Assembly: GCA_027593245.1 (NCBI GenBank)
Contig: JAQCJC010000008.1
Coordinates: 1-45,660, forward strand
Source: Bacteroidota bacterium
Lineage (GTDB): Bacteria > Bacteroidota > Bacteroidia > Flavobacteriales > Flavobacteriaceae
Reading direction: 5' to 3'
Length of the DNA stretch: 45,660 nt
Shown: in pieces, positions 9,570-20,197 of the stretch
Layout of the letters: each line of letters opens with the position of its first letter
Numbering within the stretch: position 1 is the first letter of the stretch
Notes under the pieces: model-generated
The model's database searches: none
Seen by the model: only the letters and a program-made list of their open reading frames with translations
Told to the model about the DNA's origin: nothing
Position numbers and translations under genes: made by a program

Positions 9570-10790
9570 TTAATTAAGTTCAAAACCAAGCGCTGAGAGG
9601 TCAGACCAAAAATCTGGATAAGACTTAGAAACCACATCGGCATCGTCAATAAAAAGCTGAGTTTTGAGTCCAAGGGGAGCAAATGCCATCGCCATGCGGT
9701 GGTCATTATAGGTCGCAATATGTGCGTTGGAGTTTAATTTATTTGGAGATTTTAGATGTAAACTATCGTCTGTAATTTCAATTGAAGTCCCTAACTTTTT
9801 TATTTCGTTTTGTAGAGCGACTAGGCGATCTGTTTCCTTGATTTTCAGAGTATGCAGCCCCTTCAAATTACACCCTATCTTTAGTCCCAAGCAAGTTACA
9901 GCTATAGTTTGTGCTATATCTGGTGCATTGACCAAATCTAAAGTCAATTGTTTTGACTGTGGTTCAGCTAATTTTTTTAAGGACAAGGTAGTTTCATTAA
10001 ACGAACTTTCTACACCAAGTTCCTTATAAATGTTTTTCAATACAGCATCCCCCTGTAAGCTATTAGGTTTATAGGCTGAGAGATCAATTTGCGTTCCAAT
10101 TGGACTTAAAGCAACAATGCTGTAAAAATAAGATGCTGAGGACCAATCGGCCTCAACTGTAAAGGTCTTATTGATGTCTTCGGCAAATGGAAGAACAGAA
10201 ATCATTTGTCCGTCGAAAGCAGTTTGCACGCCTAATTCTTCAAGTAATGAAAGTGTCATTTTTATGTACGGTACAGATGTTATTTTACCTTCTAAATGAA
10301 GAGACAGCCCTTTTGACAAGGTGGGTGCAATAAGCAGCAATGCTGAGATGTACTGACTGCTGATATTGGCCTTTAAATACACCTTGCTATCCGTGAGGCT
10401 TTTGCCTTCTATTAGAAGTGGCGGATAGCCTTCATTTTTTGTGTAAGTGATAGATGCGCCTAAAGAATTAAGGGCCTCAACAAGAATTTTAATCGGCCGC
10501 TCTTGCATTCTGCTCGAGCCTGTCAAAGTTGTAGTAGTTCCGGGTCGAGTTGCGAAATAAGCAGTAAGAAAACGCATTGCTGTTCCCGCATGGTGGATAT
10601 CCACTGTTGAACTAGAGGAGGTAAGTGCAGCTTGCATTAATTGGCTGTCATCAGAATTAGATAAATTATTGATTTTGAGCCCTTTGTATAGGGCCTGCAA
10701 CAACAAAACTCTATTAGATTCACTTTTTGACCCCGTAATTTTAAGCGAAGAAAAGGGTTTAATTTCTGACTTGTTTATTGAGATTTGCAC
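9570..10790 (-). CDS. aroA: 3-phosphoshikimate 1-carboxyvinyltransferase (EPSP synthase)
   Basis: A 406-residue EPSP synthase, the sixth step of the shikimate pathway (shikimate-3-phosphate + PEP to EPSP). Substrate-binding residues are visible: Lys22, Ser23 and Arg27 in GSKSESNR, AGTAMR at 68-73, and the later KIKETDRL and DHRMAMAFAPLG motifs. It is slightly shorter than the E. coli enzyme (427 aa), with a compact N-terminus, as is usual in Flavobacteria. It starts 2 bases after the stop of the MazG-like gene and is probably co-transcribed with it. It lies near, but not in, the attenuated aromatic operon at 12690-16594. Confidence 0.96.
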   Translation of the reverse strand: MQISINKSEIKPFSSLKITGSKSESNRVLLLQALYKGLKINNLSNSDDSQLMQAALTSSSSTVDIHHAGTAMRFLTAYFATRPGTTTTLTGSSRMQERPIKILVEALNSLGASITYTKNEGYPPLLIEGKSLTDSKVYLKANISSQYISALLLIAPTLSKGLSLHLEGKITSVPYIKMTLSLLEELGVQTAFDGQMISVLPFAEDINKTFTVEADWSSASYFYSIVALSPIGTQIDLSAYKPNSLQGDAVLKNIYKELGVESSFNETTLSLKKLAEPQSKQLTLDLVNAPDIAQTIAVTCLGLKIGCNLKGLHTLKIKETDRLVALQNEIKKLGTSIEITDDSLHLKSPNKLNSNAHIATYNDHRMAMAFAPLGLKTQLFIDDADVVSKSYPDFWSDLSALGFELN

Positions 10791-12689: not shown

Positions 12690-13772
12690 TTATGATTTCA
12701 AAATTTGTTTTTGATGATTAATTGATTCTTGATGAATTGCCTTAAATAGTTTTAAAATAAACTCTTCGCTTAAATTGTGTTGTTCGCCCTCTAGAACCAT
12801 TTTACCTAAGATTTCGTTCCAACGTTTACTTTGCAGCACGGCAACATTTTTTTCTTTTTTCAAGGCGCCAATTGCCTCAGCCACTTTCATTCGTTTTCCT
12901 AAAGTATCTAACAATTGGTTGTCAGCTACATCAATTTGTGCTCTAAGATTTTGAAGTTCAGAAGTGTAATCAGCTTCAGTTGTGCTTTCCTTTCTGATTT
13001 TCAGGTCTTTGGTGTATTGTATAAGCGTTTTTGGAGTAATCTGTTGAGCAGCATCACTCCATGCATTATCAGGGTCATAATGAGTTTCAATCATTAATCC
13101 ATCAAAATTCAAGTCCAATGCTGTTTGGCATACATCAAATACCATGTCACGCCTTCCTGTAATATGAGAGGGATCATTTATGAGCGGTAAGTCAGGGAAT
13201 CTAGTTTGCAGCTCAATTGCCAATTGCCATTCTGGATTATTTCTGTATTTCGATTTTTCATATGTCGAAAAACCTCGGTGAATCACCCCTAAATTTTTGA
13301 TGTTAGCAGAAGACAAACGCTCTACTGCACCAAGCCATAAGGCAAGATCTGGATTTACTGGGTTTTTGATTAAAACAATCTTATCTGTTCCTTCTAAGGC
13401 ATCAGCGATTTCTTGAACAATAAAAGGGCTCACTGTTGACCGTGCACCTATCCACAGCAAATCGATATCGTGTTCTAGTGCAAGCTCAACATGTGCTCTG
13501 TTTGCCACTTCTGTTGCTGTTTTCAAACCAGTTTCAGCCTTAACTTTCTGGAGCCACTTTAAGCCTAAAGCACCTACCCCTTCAAAGTTTCCGGGTCGGG
13601 TCCGTGGTTTCCAAATGCCCGCACGAAAATAACTGACATCAGAATCCTTTAGTTCGTGTGCTATTTTTAATACTTGTTCTTCAGTTTCTGCACTACACGG
13701 CCCAGCGATGACTAGAGGGTGTTCAAGTTTCAAATCATCTAACCATGTGCTTAATTCTTTGCTATTTTGCAT
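12690..13772 (-). CDS. Bifunctional DAHP synthase / chorismate mutase
   Basis: A 360-residue fusion. Residues ~1-265 are a type I-beta DAHP synthase (PEP + erythrose-4-phosphate, first step of the shikimate pathway), with GPCSAE at 24-29, KPRTRPGNFEG, IGARSTVSPF and the metal-site segment INDPSHITGRR. Residues ~268-360 are an AroQ-class chorismate mutase (LRAQIDVADNQLLDTLGKRM and a following helix with K-x-x-x-V-L-Q-S-K-R). The order DAHPS then mutase is known in Bacteroidota; the mutase domain can also serve as the regulatory site for prephenate. It is the last gene of the pheA operon, 10 bases after tyrA, with a terminator behind it. Confidence 0.95.
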   Translation of the reverse strand: MQNSKELSTWLDDLKLEHPLVIAGPCSAETEEQVLKIAHELKDSDVSYFRAGIWKPRTRPGNFEGVGALGLKWLQKVKAETGLKTATEVANRAHVELALEHDIDLLWIGARSTVSPFIVQEIADALEGTDKIVLIKNPVNPDLALWLGAVERLSSANIKNLGVIHRGFSTYEKSKYRNNPEWQLAIELQTRFPDLPLINDPSHITGRRDMVFDVCQTALDLNFDGLMIETHYDPDNAWSDAAQQITPKTLIQYTKDLKIRKESTTEADYTSELQNLRAQIDVADNQLLDTLGKRMKVAEAIGALKKEKNVAVLQSKRWNEILGKMVLEGEQHNLSEEFILKLFKAIHQESINHQKQILKS

Positions 13773-13782
13773 AGTATTGGTT

Positions 13783-14634
13783 TTAAGAAATTCCTTTTAA
13801 AATTGTTTTTATATGATTAATACTTCTCATTTCGTTACGGACGGATTCAAAATCATCTGATTCCATTAACGCTTTAAAATGGTTTAAGTTTTGAATGTAT
13901 TCATTGAGTGTTTCAATAACATTATCTTTGTTTTGTTCAAAAATGGGAGCCCACATGTCAGGTGAACTTTTTGCTAAGCGTACAGTCGACTCAAATCCAC
14001 TGCCTGCCATGTCAAAAATATTAAGTTCATTTTTTTCTTTGTCAATTACTGTTTTGCCTAGCATAAATGAACTGATGTGGGATAAATGAGACACATAAGC
14101 AATATGCTTGTCGTGTTCGACTGCATCCATATAACGAATACTCATACCCATAGCTTTAAAAATCTCGATCATCTCTTTAGATCGCTTTGGTTCAGTTTTG
14201 TCTAGATCGCAAATAATATTGGTTTTGTTTTTAAACAAATCAACAAAAGCAGCTTTCGGACCAGAAAATTCAGTACCTGCTATTGGGTGATTGGCCAAAA
14301 ACTGAGCGCGTTTCGGATGTGCATCCGCAACTTGACATATTGAGGCTTTTGTGGAGCCCATATCGACAACTAGCCCTTGAGGTGGCAATAAATCTAATAT
14401 TCTTGGCAGTAAATTAAGTGTTGCATCAACAGGGATAGATAAGAGTACTAAATCGGCGCGCTCAATATCCTCAACTTCTGCCTTTTTATGTATTAACCCT
14501 AAGTTTAAAGCTTCCGTAAGATGACCTTCATTGTGATCAATACCATGAATTACAGCTTTGGGTTTAACGGCTTTCAAATTTAAAGCAAGACTACCTCCGA
14601 TCAGTCCAGTCCCTATGATGTATATATTCTTCAT
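13783..14634 (-). CDS. tyrA: Prephenate dehydrogenase
   Basis: A 283-residue TyrA that oxidatively decarboxylates prephenate to 4-hydroxyphenylpyruvate on the tyrosine branch. A Rossmann motif opens the protein (GTGLIGGS, residues 8-15). Then come SIPVDATL, MGSTKASI, HPIAGTEFSGP and YVSHLSHISS, which carries the catalytic-site His. It has no visible C-terminal ACT domain. The start overlaps the aminotransferase stop by four bases, so translation is coupled. Confidence 0.95.
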   Translation of the reverse strand: MKNIYIIGTGLIGGSLALNLKAVKPKAVIHGIDHNEGHLTEALNLGLIHKKAEVEDIERADLVLLSIPVDATLNLLPRILDLLPPQGLVVDMGSTKASICQVADAHPKRAQFLANHPIAGTEFSGPKAAFVDLFKNKTNIICDLDKTEPKRSKEMIEIFKAMGMSIRYMDAVEHDKHIAYVSHLSHISSFMLGKTVIDKEKNELNIFDMAGSGFESTVRLAKSSPDMWAPIFEQNKDNVIETLNEYIQNLNHFKALMESDDFESVRNEMRSINHIKTILKGIS

Positions 14635-15776
14635 GCTGTACGCTTTAGGGCTTCATTAATGTCTTCTATCGGGGCGCAGAGCGAAAAACGTATGTAACCT
14701 TCCCCATTGGATCCAAAAATGGTTCCAGGTGCTACAAAAATATTTTTTTCAACAAGTAATGTGTCTATAAACTGTTCTGCATCGATCCCTTGCGAAAGTT
14801 TTGCCCAAACAAACATTCCTGCCGTGTCTGGCTCAAATGTACAGCCAAGTTGAGTTGCTAATTCCCAAACTAAAGCGCGGCGCTTTTTGTAAACCTCGTT
14901 AAGACTAGTGAACCAATCATTAGAAGATTTCAGAGCAGCGACAGCACCTTTTTGAACACCATAGAACATACCTGAATCCATATTGCTTTTAACTTTTATC
15001 ACATTGTTGATGTGTTGTTCAGCGCCTAAAAGCATACCAACACGCCAGCCAGCCATATTAAAACTTTTACTTAACGAATTTAGCTCCAAGCACACCTCTT
15101 TTGCTCCCTTAATATTAAAAATACTATTTGGGTTATCGTTCAAGATAAAACTATAAGGGTTATCATTGACAAGCAGAATATTGTGTTTTTTTGCAAATTG
15201 AATTAAAGCCGTTAAATGCTGCTCTGAGCCAAGTGTACCCGTAGGCATGTGTGGGTAATTGACCCACATGATTTTCACTCTTGAAAGATCCAATCGTTCT
15301 AGTGCTGATATCTGCGGTTGCCAATGCTTTTCCGCAGTTAAATCGTAAAAAATAGGGGTTGCACCTACTAACTTTGTAACCGAGCTGTAGGTAGGATATC
15401 CTGGATTTGGAATCAATGCAGCATCACCCTCATTGAGATAGGCCATGGAGATATGCATAATACCCTCCTTACTGCCCATAAGCGGAAGAATTTCATTTTC
15501 AGCATTGATTAAAACATTGTAATTTTTTTCATAAAAACTAGAAATTGCGTGTCTAAGCTCAGGTAATCCTTGGTAACTTTGATACTTGTGGGCTTGGGGT
15601 TCAGACAGGCTGTTTTCAAGTGCCGCTAGCACTGAAGGATGTGGCGGTAAATCTGGACTTCCAATGCCTAGGTTAATTACAGCTGCGCCATTGGAAACGA
15701 GTGTACGTACTTCTTTCAGTTTTTTTGAAAAGTAGTATTCTTCAACAGTATCTAAACGACGGGCTACTAGACTCAT
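14631..15776 (-). CDS. PLP-dependent class I/II aminotransferase (aromatic pathway)
   Basis: A 381-residue fold-type I aminotransferase with the PLP lysine at about 237 (SLSKSFNMAGWRVG), INLGIGSPDLPPHPSV near the N-terminus and NPGYPTYSS. It resembles aspartate/LL-diaminopimelate-type aminotransferases. Its place between prephenate dehydratase and prephenate dehydrogenase, with 4-base overlaps on both sides, argues that it transaminates phenylpyruvate and 4-hydroxyphenylpyruvate (or prephenate) to finish Phe and Tyr. The exact substrate range is inferred from context only. Confidence 0.92.
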   Translation of the reverse strand: MSLVARRLDTVEEYYFSKKLKEVRTLVSNGAAVINLGIGSPDLPPHPSVLAALENSLSEPQAHKYQSYQGLPELRHAISSFYEKNYNVLINAENEILPLMGSKEGIMHISMAYLNEGDAALIPNPGYPTYSSVTKLVGATPIFYDLTAEKHWQPQISALERLDLSRVKIMWVNYPHMPTGTLGSEQHLTALIQFAKKHNILLVNDNPYSFILNDNPNSIFNIKGAKEVCLELNSLSKSFNMAGWRVGMLLGAEQHINNVIKVKSNMDSGMFYGVQKGAVAALKSSNDWFTSLNEVYKKRRALVWELATQLGCTFEPDTAGMFVWAKLSQGIDAEQFIDTLLVEKNIFVAPGTIFGSNGEGYIRFSLCAPIEDINEALKRTA

Positions 15777-16594
15777 TGTTTTGCATTTTTATAAGTACCA
15801 AGTACTTTAAATTCTTCAGCCATTATTTTCATCACAGCAGTTGCCTTTTCATAATCCTCATAATCATCAAATGTGACATCCACAAAGAATGCATACTTCC
15901 AAGGTGTATCAATTTTAGGTAAAGATTGAATTTTGGTCAAGTTAAGTTTGCAATCGCTCATGACATTGAGCATGGCGGCTAAACTCCCACGTTTATGATT
16001 CAGCATAAATTTTAATGAGGCTTTATTTATAGTTGAGGAAGGGTTTTCGTTCCGTTCAACGATTACAAAACGAGTTTCATTATGCCTAATGGTTTGAATG
16101 CTCTCAGCTAAAATATTCAATTTATATATCTCTGCCGCACTAGAACTAGCAATGGCTGCAACTCCCTTTAATTGTTTCTTGTGAATTCTTTGTGCAACCT
16201 CAGCAGTATCGCGATCCTCAACTAATTTTATATGTGGATACTTGTCGAAAAAAGATTGACATTGCAACAATGCCATGGGATGCGAGTATACTTCTCTTAT
16301 ATCTAAAATATCCTGACCAGACAATGCCATTAAATTATGTTGAATATCTAAATAATACTCTCCTGTTATATGTAAATTATTGGCATCGATTAAAGCATAA
16401 TTAGGAATTATAGAGCCCGCAATTGAATTCTCCAATGCCATTACAGCGGTATCAACTTTTTCTTTAATCAAGCTATCCACTACTTCATTGAATGTTAAGA
16501 GGGGTTCAATTTCTACTGGATGCACAAAATAATTTTGCGTAACCAAATGATGAAATGACCCTTTTATCCCTTGTATGGCGACTTTATTTATCAT
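15773..16594 (-). CDS. pheA: Prephenate dehydratase
   Basis: A 273-residue PheA converting prephenate to phenylpyruvate. The catalytic domain (1-~180) contains the conserved Thr-Arg-Phe at 174-176 (NETRFVIVE). The C-terminal ACT domain (~190-270) has KRGSLAAML and TKIQSLP in the positions of the phenylalanine-binding motifs, so feedback inhibition is likely. No separate chorismate mutase domain is attached; that activity sits in the last gene of the operon. The start codon directly follows the T-run of the attenuator, with no room for a Shine-Dalgarno sequence. The conserved start VAIQGIKGSFHH supports this ATG. Confidence 0.96.
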   Translation of the reverse strand: MINKVAIQGIKGSFHHLVTQNYFVHPVEIEPLLTFNEVVDSLIKEKVDTAVMALENSIAGSIIPNYALIDANNLHITGEYYLDIQHNLMALSGQDILDIREVYSHPMALLQCQSFFDKYPHIKLVEDRDTAEVAQRIHKKQLKGVAAIASSSAAEIYKLNILAESIQTIRHNETRFVIVERNENPSSTINKASLKFMLNHKRGSLAAMLNVMSDCKLNLTKIQSLPKIDTPWKYAFFVDVTFDDYEDYEKATAVMKIMAEEFKVLGTYKNAKQ

Positions 16595-16625
16595 AAAAAA
16601 AAATCTCGATATTTACATCGAGACT
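16595..16625 (-). terminator. Attenuator (intrinsic terminator) of the pheA operon
   Basis: On the minus strand TCTCGAT (16623-16617), loop GTAAAT, ATCGAGA (16610-16604), then nine T up to the base before the pheA ATG. Flanking G-T and A-T pairs can extend the stem to nine. It lies 25 bases after the stop of the aromatic leader peptide. An upstream segment GTCGAGGT (16670-16663), inside the leader frame, can pair with the left arm as an antiterminator. Confidence 0.88.
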
Positions 16626-16649
16626 CAAATTGAAAGTTATAATATTAAA

Positions 16650-16730
16650 TTACACATACAAGACCTCGACTCTTTTTTCAAAAAAGAAGTAATACCAGCT
16701 GTAGAATGTATAATATGTATTATGCATCAT
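16650..16730 (-). CDS. Aromatic leader peptide of the pheA operon (attenuation)
   Basis: A 26-codon frame, ATG at 16730-16728 and TAA at 16652-16650. Eleven of the 26 residues are aromatic: six Tyr, four Phe and one Trp. Codons 6-17 read YYTFYSWYYFFF. The frame ends 25 bases before an intrinsic terminator that precedes pheA. This is the classical arrangement of a leader peptide whose stalling, under shortage of charged tRNA-Phe or tRNA-Tyr, prevents the terminator from forming. A possible 1:2 hairpin covers the Phe codons (ACTTCTTTT / AAAAGAGT, one mismatch), and codons 21-23 hold the candidate antiterminator strand. It is too short to be found by ordinary gene calling. The composition and context make chance unlikely; the mechanism itself is inferred. 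Confidence 0.9.
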   Translation of the reverse strand: MMHNTYYTFYSWYYFFFEKRVEVLYV

Positions 16731-16744
16731 TAATTATTAGAGCG

Positions 16745-16773
16745 CTAAAGTAAATATTTTTTATTCAAAACAA
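16745..16773 (-). promoter_or_regulatory. Promoter of the pheA attenuated operon
   Basis: On the minus strand TTG (16773-16771), 18-base spacer, TACTTTAG (16752-16745), one mismatch from TAnnTTTG. It would start transcription at about 16738-16740, some 10 bases before the leader ATG. Confidence 0.6.
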
Positions 16774-16886
16774 AATTCAATTTTATGTTTTTTGAAATTC
16801 GCCTTCAATTTTCATTAATTCTAAAAAAAACAGCAAATTAATTGAACATTAACTAAAATATCGAGCTTTTACTGAATTGAATTCAA

Positions 16887-17633
16887 TCAATCCAAGAAAA
16901 TAAGTGCTCCCGTGTAAAGTTGGGTTACATCTACCTCTGCTGGGGTATGTACAGAGATCAAGTTCCCGGTACCGCGCAATTCTCCTTTAAGAGATTGTAA
17001 GGGATGTACAACAATATCATGGCTACTGCGGTGTGATATTATAACATTCTGTGCTAAAAGATTTGCTCCAAAAAAAGCTGTTGTCCCCGAATAGAATCCA
17101 ACAGAAAGATTATCCACAGCGCCAGATATAATAAATTGCGATAGATTATTGGAAATTACATTTAAGCTTTCAGCTTGTATTACCAAATCAAAGTCACCCA
17201 AACTTAATTGATCTTCACGAAAATTTTCAGAGATCAAATTCAAATTTTGAAATGTTAATAGCCCTAAAGATTTTATTGTATACTGAGAATTACTTCGAAT
17301 TTCTGAAAGATTTGGGGTAGTCACTGTGATTTTAGTAGGACTATAACTACGAATCCAATTGCAAAGATTGTGGTCTGTGAGGGACAGCACATCCTCGCTT
17401 ACAGCATAAGAGATATCGGAAATCAAATGGGCACCAGCATCAATACTTAGATGGAAATCAACTCCTTCCTTAACAACTAATTCTATGTTTTCATTAACCA
17501 AAATTTTACTGAATGGTTCAAGACTATATTCAACACTGATCCTATCGCCGGCAGTTTGTATACAATCTGGGGCTTTATCCTCAGCGCAGGCCAAAACAAG
17601 CAGAATAATACTATTTAATAATACCTTTTTCAT
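16887..17633 (-). CDS. GIN-domain (DUF2807-like) lipoprotein
   Basis: A 248-residue lipoprotein (lipobox LVLAC, Cys16). The mature part reads like a right-handed beta-helix of the GIN/DUF2807 'head' family: SLEPFSKILVNENIELVVKEG, a PTKITVTTPNLSEIRS segment, then repeated strands (LNLISENF, LNVISNNLSQFIISG, VDNLSVGFYSG, VIISHRSSHDIVVHP). These domains are common in Bacteroidota and poorly understood; they may bind or shield surface polymers. Its start overlaps the stop of the PagL-like gene by four bases, so the two are coupled and may work together at the outer membrane. It is followed by a ~250-base AT-rich region in front of the pheA promoter, in which I see nothing beyond that promoter. 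Confidence 0.85.
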   Translation of the reverse strand: MKKVLLNSIILLVLACAEDKAPDCIQTAGDRISVEYSLEPFSKILVNENIELVVKEGVDFHLSIDAGAHLISDISYAVSEDVLSLTDHNLCNWIRSYSPTKITVTTPNLSEIRSNSQYTIKSLGLLTFQNLNLISENFREDQLSLGDFDLVIQAESLNVISNNLSQFIISGAVDNLSVGFYSGTTAFFGANLLAQNVIISHRSSHDIVVHPLQSLKGELRGTGNLISVHTPAEVDVTQLYTGALIFLD

Positions 17634-18940: not shown

Positions 18941-20197
18941 ATGAGTTACTTATTTACTTCCGAAAGTGTTTCAGAAGGACACCCCGATAAAGTAGCAGAC
19001 CAAATTAGCGATGCAATCATCGACCATTTTTTGGCCTTCGATCCGCAAGCCAAAGTGGCTTGTGAAACATTGGTGACTACCGGGCAAGTTATTTTGGCTG
19101 GTGAGGTCAAATCTAAAACCTATTTGGACGTACAACAGATCGCTCGAGACACAATAAATAAAATTGGTTATACCAAAAGCGAATACATGTTTGACGGGAA
19201 TTCATGTGGGGTTCTTTCAGCCATACACGAGCAATCGGATGACATAAATAGAGGTGTTGATAAAGAAACCCCTGAAGAACAAGGGGCTGGTGACCAAGGT
19301 ATGATGTTTGGTTACGCCACCAATGAAACCGAAAACTACATGCCTTTGGCATTGGATTTGTCACACCGTATTTTAAAAGAACTTGCTGCTTTGCGTCACG
19401 CAAACAAAGACATCACTTATTTGCGTCCAGACTCTAAAAGTCAGGTTACTATTGAATATGGTGATGACAATGTCCCGTTGCGGATTGATTCTATTGTAAT
19501 CTCTACACAACATGACGACTTTTCTGATGATGAAAAAGAAATGCTTGATACGATCAAAAAAGACATTAAGGCCATTTTGATTCCAAGAGTAATCTCAAAA
19601 TTACCTGAGACCATCCAAGCACTTTTTAATGATAATATTACGTATCACATCAATCCAACAGGTAAGTTTGTAATTGGCGGCCCTCACGGAGATACCGGAT
19701 TGACTGGCCGTAAAATTATAGTAGACACCTACGGCGGAAAAGGCGCACATGGTGGAGGTGCATTTTCGGGAAAAGACCCAAGTAAAGTAGACCGGTCAGC
19801 GGCCTATGCCATGCGTCATATTGCCAAAAATATAGTGGCAGCGGGGGTGTGTTCTGAGCTTTTGGTACAAGTAAGTTACGCTATTGGCGTAGCCGAACCT
19901 ACGGGTGTTTTTGTAGATACTTACGGCACGGCCAATGTGGCTCTCAACGATGGTGCTATTGCACAAAAAATAATGGAACTATTTGACCTGCGCCCAGCGG
20001 CAATTGAGCAACGACTAAAACTTCGCACCCCAATGTACAGCGAAACCGCTGCTTATGGCCATATGGGGCGTACAAACGAAACTGTAGAAAAAGTATTTTA
20101 TCTACCCAATGGTGAAAAACGAGTGTTGGATGTAGAACTTTTTACGTGGGAAAAACTAGATTATACAGAAGCAATTAAAACTGCTTTCAAGCTCTAA
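18941..20197 (+). CDS. metK: S-adenosylmethionine synthetase
   Basis: A 418-residue methionine adenosyltransferase making SAM from methionine and ATP. Signature segments are [13 protein letters not shown] at the start, [12 protein letters not shown], and [19 protein letters not shown] with the P-loop-like turn. It is somewhat longer than E. coli MetK (384), with insertions in the middle ([18 protein letters not shown]), as is usual in Bacteroidota. It is preceded by a SAM-II-like riboswitch and followed by a strong hairpin terminator. Confidence 0.98.

Follow-up and report, generated by a model that had tools for sequence, protein, structure and literature searches.

A probable leader-peptide attenuator with mixed aromatic control codons upstream of the pheA operon of Flavobacteriaceae

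The pheA operon of a flavobacterium (Flavobacteriaceae; assembly GCA_027593245.1) is very probably preceded by a ribosome-mediated transcription attenuator. In the analyzed stretch of 45,660 nucleotides (contig JAQCJC010000008.1; hereafter, the window), an ORF rich in aromatic codons is separated from pheA by a predicted intrinsic terminator, the end of the ORF carries an antiterminator arm whose pairing excludes the terminator, and the spacing between the aromatic codons and this arm fits the footprint of a ribosome. The first-pass annotation of the window had proposed ribosome-mediated attenuation, and leader peptide, antiterminator and terminator all proved to be conserved in the comparison reported here.

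The leader lies between a DUF2807 gene (16887-17633, minus strand, like pheA) and pheA, and consists, in this order, of a promoter candidate, a 26-codon ORF, a stem-loop and nine T (Table 1). Because the first three of the genes pheA, aminotransferase, tyrA and DAHP synthase-chorismate mutase overlap by 4 nt at both junctions, and the fourth follows tyrA after a gap of 10 nt, the four were taken as an operon, which makes Phe and Tyr. In the one-contig sister genome (G001), no DAHP synthase was found besides the counterpart of the one in this operon; the other PF00793 protein there is a KDO8P synthase, and class II DAHP synthase is absent. A second aminotransferase-tyrA-DAHP synthase-rsgA set is encoded in contig C59 of the window's own assembly (L241); its DAHP synthase domain is identical to that of the operon in 229 of 239 residues, and the set probably belongs to an admixed strain (assembly contamination, 3.6%). 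Downstream of the operon, past rsgA, the D-Tyr-tRNA deacylase gene and a MazG-like gene, an EPSP synthase gene (9570-10790, minus strand) might be co-transcribed with it. A search of Rfam 15 at the gathering threshold yielded no match in the leader region; the only match in the window is a SAM-II riboswitch (RF01726, 18835-18894, plus strand, 59.9 bits) upstream of a 418-aa ORF at 18941 that, by eye, looks like a SAM synthetase.

Table 1. Features of the pheA leader and operon in the window
Feature	Position	Strand	Basis or remark
Candidate -33 element, TTTTG	16771..16775	-	sequence; inferred
Candidate -7 element, TACTTTAG	16745..16752	-	sequence; 5 of 6 specified bases of TAnnTTTG
Leader ORF, MMHNTYYTFYSWYYFFFEKRVEVLYV*	16650..16730	-	translation; 26 codons, 11 aromatic
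Control codons, aromatic run YYTFYSWYYFFF, codons 6-17	16680..16715	-	translation; kept in 117 of 119 loci
Candidate small hairpin, Phe codons TTCTTTTT (16688-16681) with purine-rich linker AAAAAGAG (16677-16670)	16670..16688	-	
Region 2, antiterminator 5' arm, GTCGAGGT	16663..16670	-	within ORF, 9 nt past the last Phe codon
Region 3, shared arm, GTCTCGAT	16617..16624	-	antiterminator 3' arm and terminator 5' arm
Terminator stem-loop, GAGTCTCGATG-TAAA-TATCGAGATTT	16601..16626	-	terminator scan; helix comparison over loci
Nine-T tract of the intrinsic terminator	16595..16603	-	sequence; abuts the pheA ATG at 16594
pheA, prephenate dehydratase	15773..16594	-	Pfam PDT, 2.9e-56
Class I/II aminotransferase gene	14631..15776	-	Pfam Aminotran_1_2, 2.2e-61; 4-nt overlap with pheA
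tyrA, prephenate dehydrogenase	13783..14634	-	Pfam PDH_N/PDH_C; NCBIfam NF006307 above cut-off
DAHP synthase-chorismate mutase fusion gene	12690..13772	-	Pfam DAHP_synth_1 and CM_2

Translation agrees with the earlier reading of a minus-strand frame of 26 codons (16730-16650) that contains 11 aromatic residues, with the run at codons 6-17. The start is probably the second ATG, at 16727 (25 codons), because the closest relative (L003) has only a single ATG, which aligns with this one. A good promoter had also been claimed for the leader. This stands insofar as candidate -7 and -33 elements of the flavobacterial type are present, the former resembling the consensus TAnnTTTG described at -12 to -5 (PMC9723704), and the leader promoter looks to be of this type; it fails for sigma-70-type sites, which occur before pheA at chance level (three found against a shuffle mean of 3.2). 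Transcription is predicted to start at about 16740, which would leave a 5' UTR of approximately 10 nt if translation begins at the first ATG, or 13 nt if it begins at the second. Of the 117 family leaders, 112 have the pattern TAnnTT[T/A]G, a consensus relaxed after the window's own site had been seen, in the 60 nt that precede their start; in 68 of these 112 it ends 15-19 nt before the start. With 4 nt subtracted from this distance, the predicted 5' UTR is no longer than 15 nt in 92 of these 112. Bacteroidia ribosomes are reported not to recognize Shine-Dalgarno sequences (PMC9976891).

The hairpin and nine T that had been placed just before pheA were recovered as a stem at 16626-16601 and a T tract at 16603-16595 touching the ATG at 16594; the stem is the sole terminator-like site in 16400-17000 (shuffles: mean 0.3, sd 0.5). 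The proposed pairing of GTCGAGGT (16670-16663) with GTCTCGAT (16624-16617) also withstood scrutiny: its score was matched by 3 of 100 segment shuffles, with three wobble pairs included. Region 2, at the end of the ORF, is a near-copy of the right arm of the terminator, with which it competes for the left arm. The folding energies of the two helices in the window are -10.3 kcal/mol for the antiterminator and -9.9 kcal/mol for the terminator (z -1.84).

To place the leader in its family, pheA was searched for in related genomes; matches were found in 11 of 11 genomes of the genus and in 178 of 199 genomes of Flavobacteriaceae, that is, in 187 genomes when the nine further members of the genus are added to the 178. 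Upstream regions were taken at 119 loci from these 187 genomes, among the matches listed, with some listed ones skipped. At 117 of the 119 family loci, the window included, pheA is preceded by a short ORF with at least six F, Y or W in 12 codons. The two exceptions are L023, where the upstream region is cut by the contig end (left out from the terminator search onward), and L098, which has no leader (left out of the later ORF and structure counts, kept in the chance control on 300-nt regions). In that control, 111 of 118 of the 300-nt regions before pheA contained an ORF with at least eight aromatic residues in 12 codons, a density seen in none of the 118 reverse complements and in 2 of the 1180 dinucleotide shuffles. 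With the threshold lowered to six, the respective counts were 116 of 118, 6 of 118 and 61 of 1180. ORF and terminator were also found in 79 of 80 named records, the best 80 matches, whose genomes overlap partly with those of the 119 loci. Records with both ORF and terminator include ones named Flavobacterium, Tenacibaculum, Polaribacter, Winogradskyella, Kordia, Aquimarina and Maribacter; F. psychrophilum is not among the named loci, other Flavobacterium species are. All these counts are over related sequences, not independent events, and kinship is ignored in them. When 40 relatives were searched with a covariance model built on the leader (R1), 24 gave one strong match each (E at most 2.1e-8), several of them being part of the model's training set; weaker matches among those listed were taken as low-complexity noise and rejected. 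At L113, leader and terminator are kept and the leader ends 392 nt before pheA; there may be an insertion between them. A record titled Rhizobium sp. (L209) contains a Flavobacterium-like pheA with a matching leader and is probably a misnamed metagenome bin.

By its coding signature, the leader ORF is a reading frame, which would be translated. In the last four codons of the aromatic run of the 117 leaders, all 468 third bases are T or C; 466 of the 468 codons are TTY or TAY (Phe or Tyr), and the Leu codons TTA and TTG are absent from these 468 positions. Choosing the most aromatic ORF flatters such a codon count, yet permits single non-aromatic codons. F, Y and W interchange at many positions of the run across loci, as would be expected if codon identity is what matters. 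Phe codons (mean 5.1) and Tyr codons (mean 3.7) are present in all 117 leaders, and a Trp codon in 81, Trp making up 3.0% of the residues.

The terminator is equally well preserved. A T tract of at least five T in 9 nt follows the stem at 116 of 116 measured family loci, where the terminator search itself demanded runs of four T. Helix counts were made on an alignment anchored on region 2 (A3; 114 loci, 112 distinct rows). A3 was built instead of an earlier alignment (A1; 71 of 116 loci, hand-picked for spread), because MAFFT held the codon register and thereby displaced region 2 by one base between pairing classes; A1 was not used for antiterminator counts. One locus with a mis-picked terminator (L043) was left out of the per-locus shuffle test, A1, A3 and the spacing count, and was added by hand for the permutation; two loci that did not match the core pattern (L065 and L091) were left out of permutation, folding, A3, covariation and the counts for the run-linker hairpin described below. 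The terminator core is paired in 672 of 672 cells of A3 and shows two-sided changes at all six pairs, in 50 cells (37 of these at one pair); shuffles yielded 0.9 two-sided cells, and none of 500 reached the observed level.

The antiterminator varies along with it. The left-arm core is GTCTCG at 73 of 115 loci, with region 2 most often CGAGAC (31), followed by CGAGGC (19); GTCCCG at 25, with CGGGAC in 16; and GTCCTG at 9, with a varying region 2 (CAGGGC, CAGGAT, TAGGAC). By eye, an extra class with left arm AATCCTG and region 2 AGGATT was seen in many Flavobacterium records. In A3, 96% of the 672 cells of the antiterminator core are paired, and this drops to 20-43% when the partner is slid by 1-3 columns; for both helices together, the comparison is 96% and 100% against 5-59%. 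Two-sided changes were found in 46 cells, against 16 in shuffles, a level reached by none of 500, with the covariation falling mainly at one position (39 of the 46 cells); the numbers of pairs with two-sided change (three) and of further pair types (nine) were reached by 140 of 500 shuffles. Region 2 was located by best pairing, leaning to the model, and the same choice was made anew when left arms were permuted among loci; observed pairing was 631, compared to 586 +/- 4 and a maximum of 599 in 1000 permutations. All six core positions are paired at 88 of 115 loci, at 47 by Watson-Crick pairs alone. Locus by locus, the pairing score of region 2 was reached by no more than 5 of 100 shuffles at 100 of 116 loci and by more at 16, clearly so at L069, L088 and L093, which together with L043 (two core mismatches) are the weak cases. 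In minimum-energy folds from which region 4 was omitted, region 2 pairs with region 3 at 113 of 115 loci, the exceptions being L088 and L100. Mean energies over the 115 loci are -13.5 kcal/mol for the antiterminator and -12.7 kcal/mol for the terminator (mean z -3.6); the terminator is the more stable of the two at 37. Thus, the alignment in relatives that the first-pass annotation had called for found the ORF and its aromatic run kept, as well as the terminator and the antiterminator that competes with it, with compensatory changes.

The spacing of these elements fits attenuation as well. Region 2 begins at least 9 nt (as a rule, 9-15) past the last aromatic codon at 108 of 116 loci, with a median of 11. 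Given a ribosome footprint that reaches about 10 nt past the A site, stalling at the last aromatic codon would leave region 2 just free, and stalls further up would leave it freer. With the stop codon in the A site, the footprint overlaps region 2 at all 116 loci, even where the stop precedes region 2, and covers it wholly at 99. What the compared sequences show is a reading frame with its aromatic run, two helices that covary, and a fitting spacing; ribosome stalling, co-transcriptional timing, termination and the question of which of the three amino acids count are matters that we infer.

Under the attenuation model, RNA polymerase would start approximately 10 nt before the leader ORF, with a ribosome following behind. 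When charged tRNA for Phe or Tyr (perhaps also Trp) is scarce, the ribosome would stall in the aromatic run, leaving region 2 free to pair with region 3 once the latter is made; the terminator would be blocked and the operon transcribed. With an ample supply of aromatic amino acids, the ribosome would reach the stop codon and sit on region 2, so that region 3 would pair with region 4 and transcription would end in the T tract before pheA.

Classical trp-type attenuators have four regions, with a protector or pause hairpin that takes in region 2; no hairpin hiding region 2 was found in this leader. When the window leader is folded in full, the Phe codons of the run form a small helix with the purine-rich linker that encodes Lys/Arg; this helix adjoins region 2 and does not cover it. 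Over 115 loci, the total score of this run-linker hairpin is 1782, compared to a maximum of 1688.5 in 500 permutations of equal-length linkers, and run and linker together fold with a mean energy of -4.3 kcal/mol, against -2.5 kcal/mol once the linker letters are shuffled. The hairpin is weak and, locus by locus, stands out at 35 of 115, in a test from which region 2 was kept out; kinship among the loci may account for part of the signal. A pause hairpin is one possible role for it, on evidence weaker than that for the two main helices, and its presence might explain the Lys/Arg codons after the aromatic run.

Could the arrangement be explained without attenuation? The DUF2807 gene lies on the same strand, and the stem-loop might be its plain terminator, with the ORF a chance product of AT-rich DNA and the operon unregulated. 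Such DNA does give F and Y codons readily (at least five in 12 codons in 198 of 1180 shuffles), but rarely the observed density (at least eight in the 2 of 1180 shuffles given above), the coding signature of the run counts against chance, and a plain terminator needs no covariation between regions 2 and 3; we consider this explanation extremely improbable. Translational control, with the hairpin masking the ribosome-binding region of pheA, draws some appeal from the genus, where hairpin and T tract directly adjoin the pheA ATG. Across loci, however, the stem lies anywhere between 6 and 344 nt from the pheA match (median 24), and yet all 116 retain the T tract, which makes this mechanism extremely improbable as well.

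Two further explanations concern the sensor. In nascent-peptide arrest, for which TnaC is the comparison system, the peptide itself would answer to free Phe or Tyr in the ribosome, and no wait for charged tRNA would be involved. Peptide identity is indeed partly kept in one large group (YxxWFYFFFSKRNE), but F, Y and W swap at many positions of the run, residues beyond the run vary, and the C-terminal residues vary with the RNA pairing class; arrest is thus very unlikely. A riboswitch or T-box in which the peptide plays no role would suit a structured 5' region ahead of a biosynthetic operon; against it, the Rfam 15 covariance models gave no match in 16560-16800 up to E 1, and what is conserved is a reading frame with short competing helices, so that of all explanations weighed here we give this one the least credence, as next to impossible. 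Ribosome-mediated attenuation remains the reading that we prefer.

Leaders of this kind extend beyond the order. In a class-level sample, 34 of 119 genomes had a pheA match; these were the source of 27 loci outside the order, from which four weak matches without a locus were left out. At 19 of these 27 Bacteroidia loci, from 13 families, a leader of score at least 5 was detected; 16 of the 19 leaders have a terminator with a perfect stem, and 11 of these 16 have a region 2 that outscores 95% of shuffles. The remaining 8 of the 27 loci lack such a leader; at two of these (L131 and L132), pheA seems to lie directly 3' of another gene.

Other amino acid operons of the same genome were inspected as well. 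A His leader peptide, MKNINLIHHHVHTGPQASCLCMD, is encoded before hisG (L121, about 1349-1475), with the control codons HHHVH and a stem, CCCGCTTGA/TCAAGCGGG, followed by eight T; it is a candidate histidine attenuator of pheA-like design. A Trp leader peptide, MNNKKQITWWWASRFN, is encoded between about 160 and 45 bases ahead of the trpE match (L122 and L123), in the sister genome too, with the control codons WWW and a stem, AAGGCTTGTC..GACAAGCCTT, with a T tract. Because TATATTTG is located just 8 nt before the ATG of the trpE leader, its transcript would be almost leaderless. Both resemble the pheA leader in that a control-codon peptide is followed by a stem and a T tract, and differ from it in that each would read one amino acid. 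Nothing comparable was found upstream of ilvD in the sister genome (L126). Leader-peptide attenuation thus probably serves several amino acids in this genome.

The attenuators of pheA, pheST and trp in Escherichia coli are of the classical leader-peptide type, and the leader described here shares with them the control-codon peptide and the antiterminator/terminator switch, as well as, in one case, the target, pheA. Unlike the E. coli attenuators, it mixes Tyr and often Trp codons with those for Phe, has a very short predicted 5' UTR, would govern a Phe/Tyr operon that contains DAHP synthase, and shows a candidate hairpin adjoining region 2 where one sequestering region 2 was not found. Multi-amino-acid leader peptides are known from ilvGMEDA of E. 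coli. Another is that of ilvB-II in Corynebacterium (PMC10272879); in these ilv leaders, too, one peptide reads several related amino acids of a common pathway, which are branched-chain and not aromatic. Phe attenuators are mentioned in PMC1262725, which lists tyrosine under T-box control in other species, not under attenuators.

In F. psychrophilum, a structured element without an Rfam match, conserved in other genera, was reported before pheA, together with 'strong clues' of leader-peptide attenuation before amino acid operons (PMC9723704, 2021). That element shares gene and family with the window leader and is very likely the same element; section 19 of that paper gives no pheA peptide, codons, antiterminator or covariation. 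In Bacteroides thetaiotaomicron, of the same phylum, short ORFs in long 5' UTRs have been described (PMC7366714), with no amino acid operon named in the passages on these ORFs and pheA absent from the main text. A pheA leader peptide is undescribed among the literature matches listed; Vitreschak 2004 and Lopatovskaya 2010 may hold Bacteroidetes predictions. The impression that a mixed aromatic sensor is less familiar in a flavobacterium is thus borne out only in part: such a mixed leader is little described, but it occurs family-wide, and attenuation had already been indicated in PMC9723704. What goes beyond the publications found is the occurrence across family and class and the mixture of Phe, Tyr and Trp codons; the mechanism is of the enteric phe/trp type.

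The least ordinary feature is a single peptide that would read Phe, Tyr and perhaps Trp. Sensing of all three would make sense because no DAHP synthase besides the operon's was found in the sister genome; Tyr and Trp may be real signals. A wider model, in which a Bacteroidia-wide, default-on leader peptide with a 5' UTR of about 10 bases and a pause hairpin on its Phe codons integrates the charging of Phe, Tyr and Trp tRNAs, is one that we advance tentatively, deeming it somewhat likelier to fail than to hold. If it is true, one peptide would govern the sole entry point of the pathway (DAHP synthase) along with both of its branches, and Tyr and Trp would act as signals in their own right instead of being tolerated neighbors of Phe, with the stall sites of the run lying upstream of region 2.

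A putative attenuator thus precedes pheA at nearly every family locus examined and recurs in other families of Bacteroidia, where it has hardly been described. It would offer a system for asking how Bacteroidia ribosomes, without Shine-Dalgarno recognition, remain coupled to transcription, and whether tyrosine can be read by a leader peptide.
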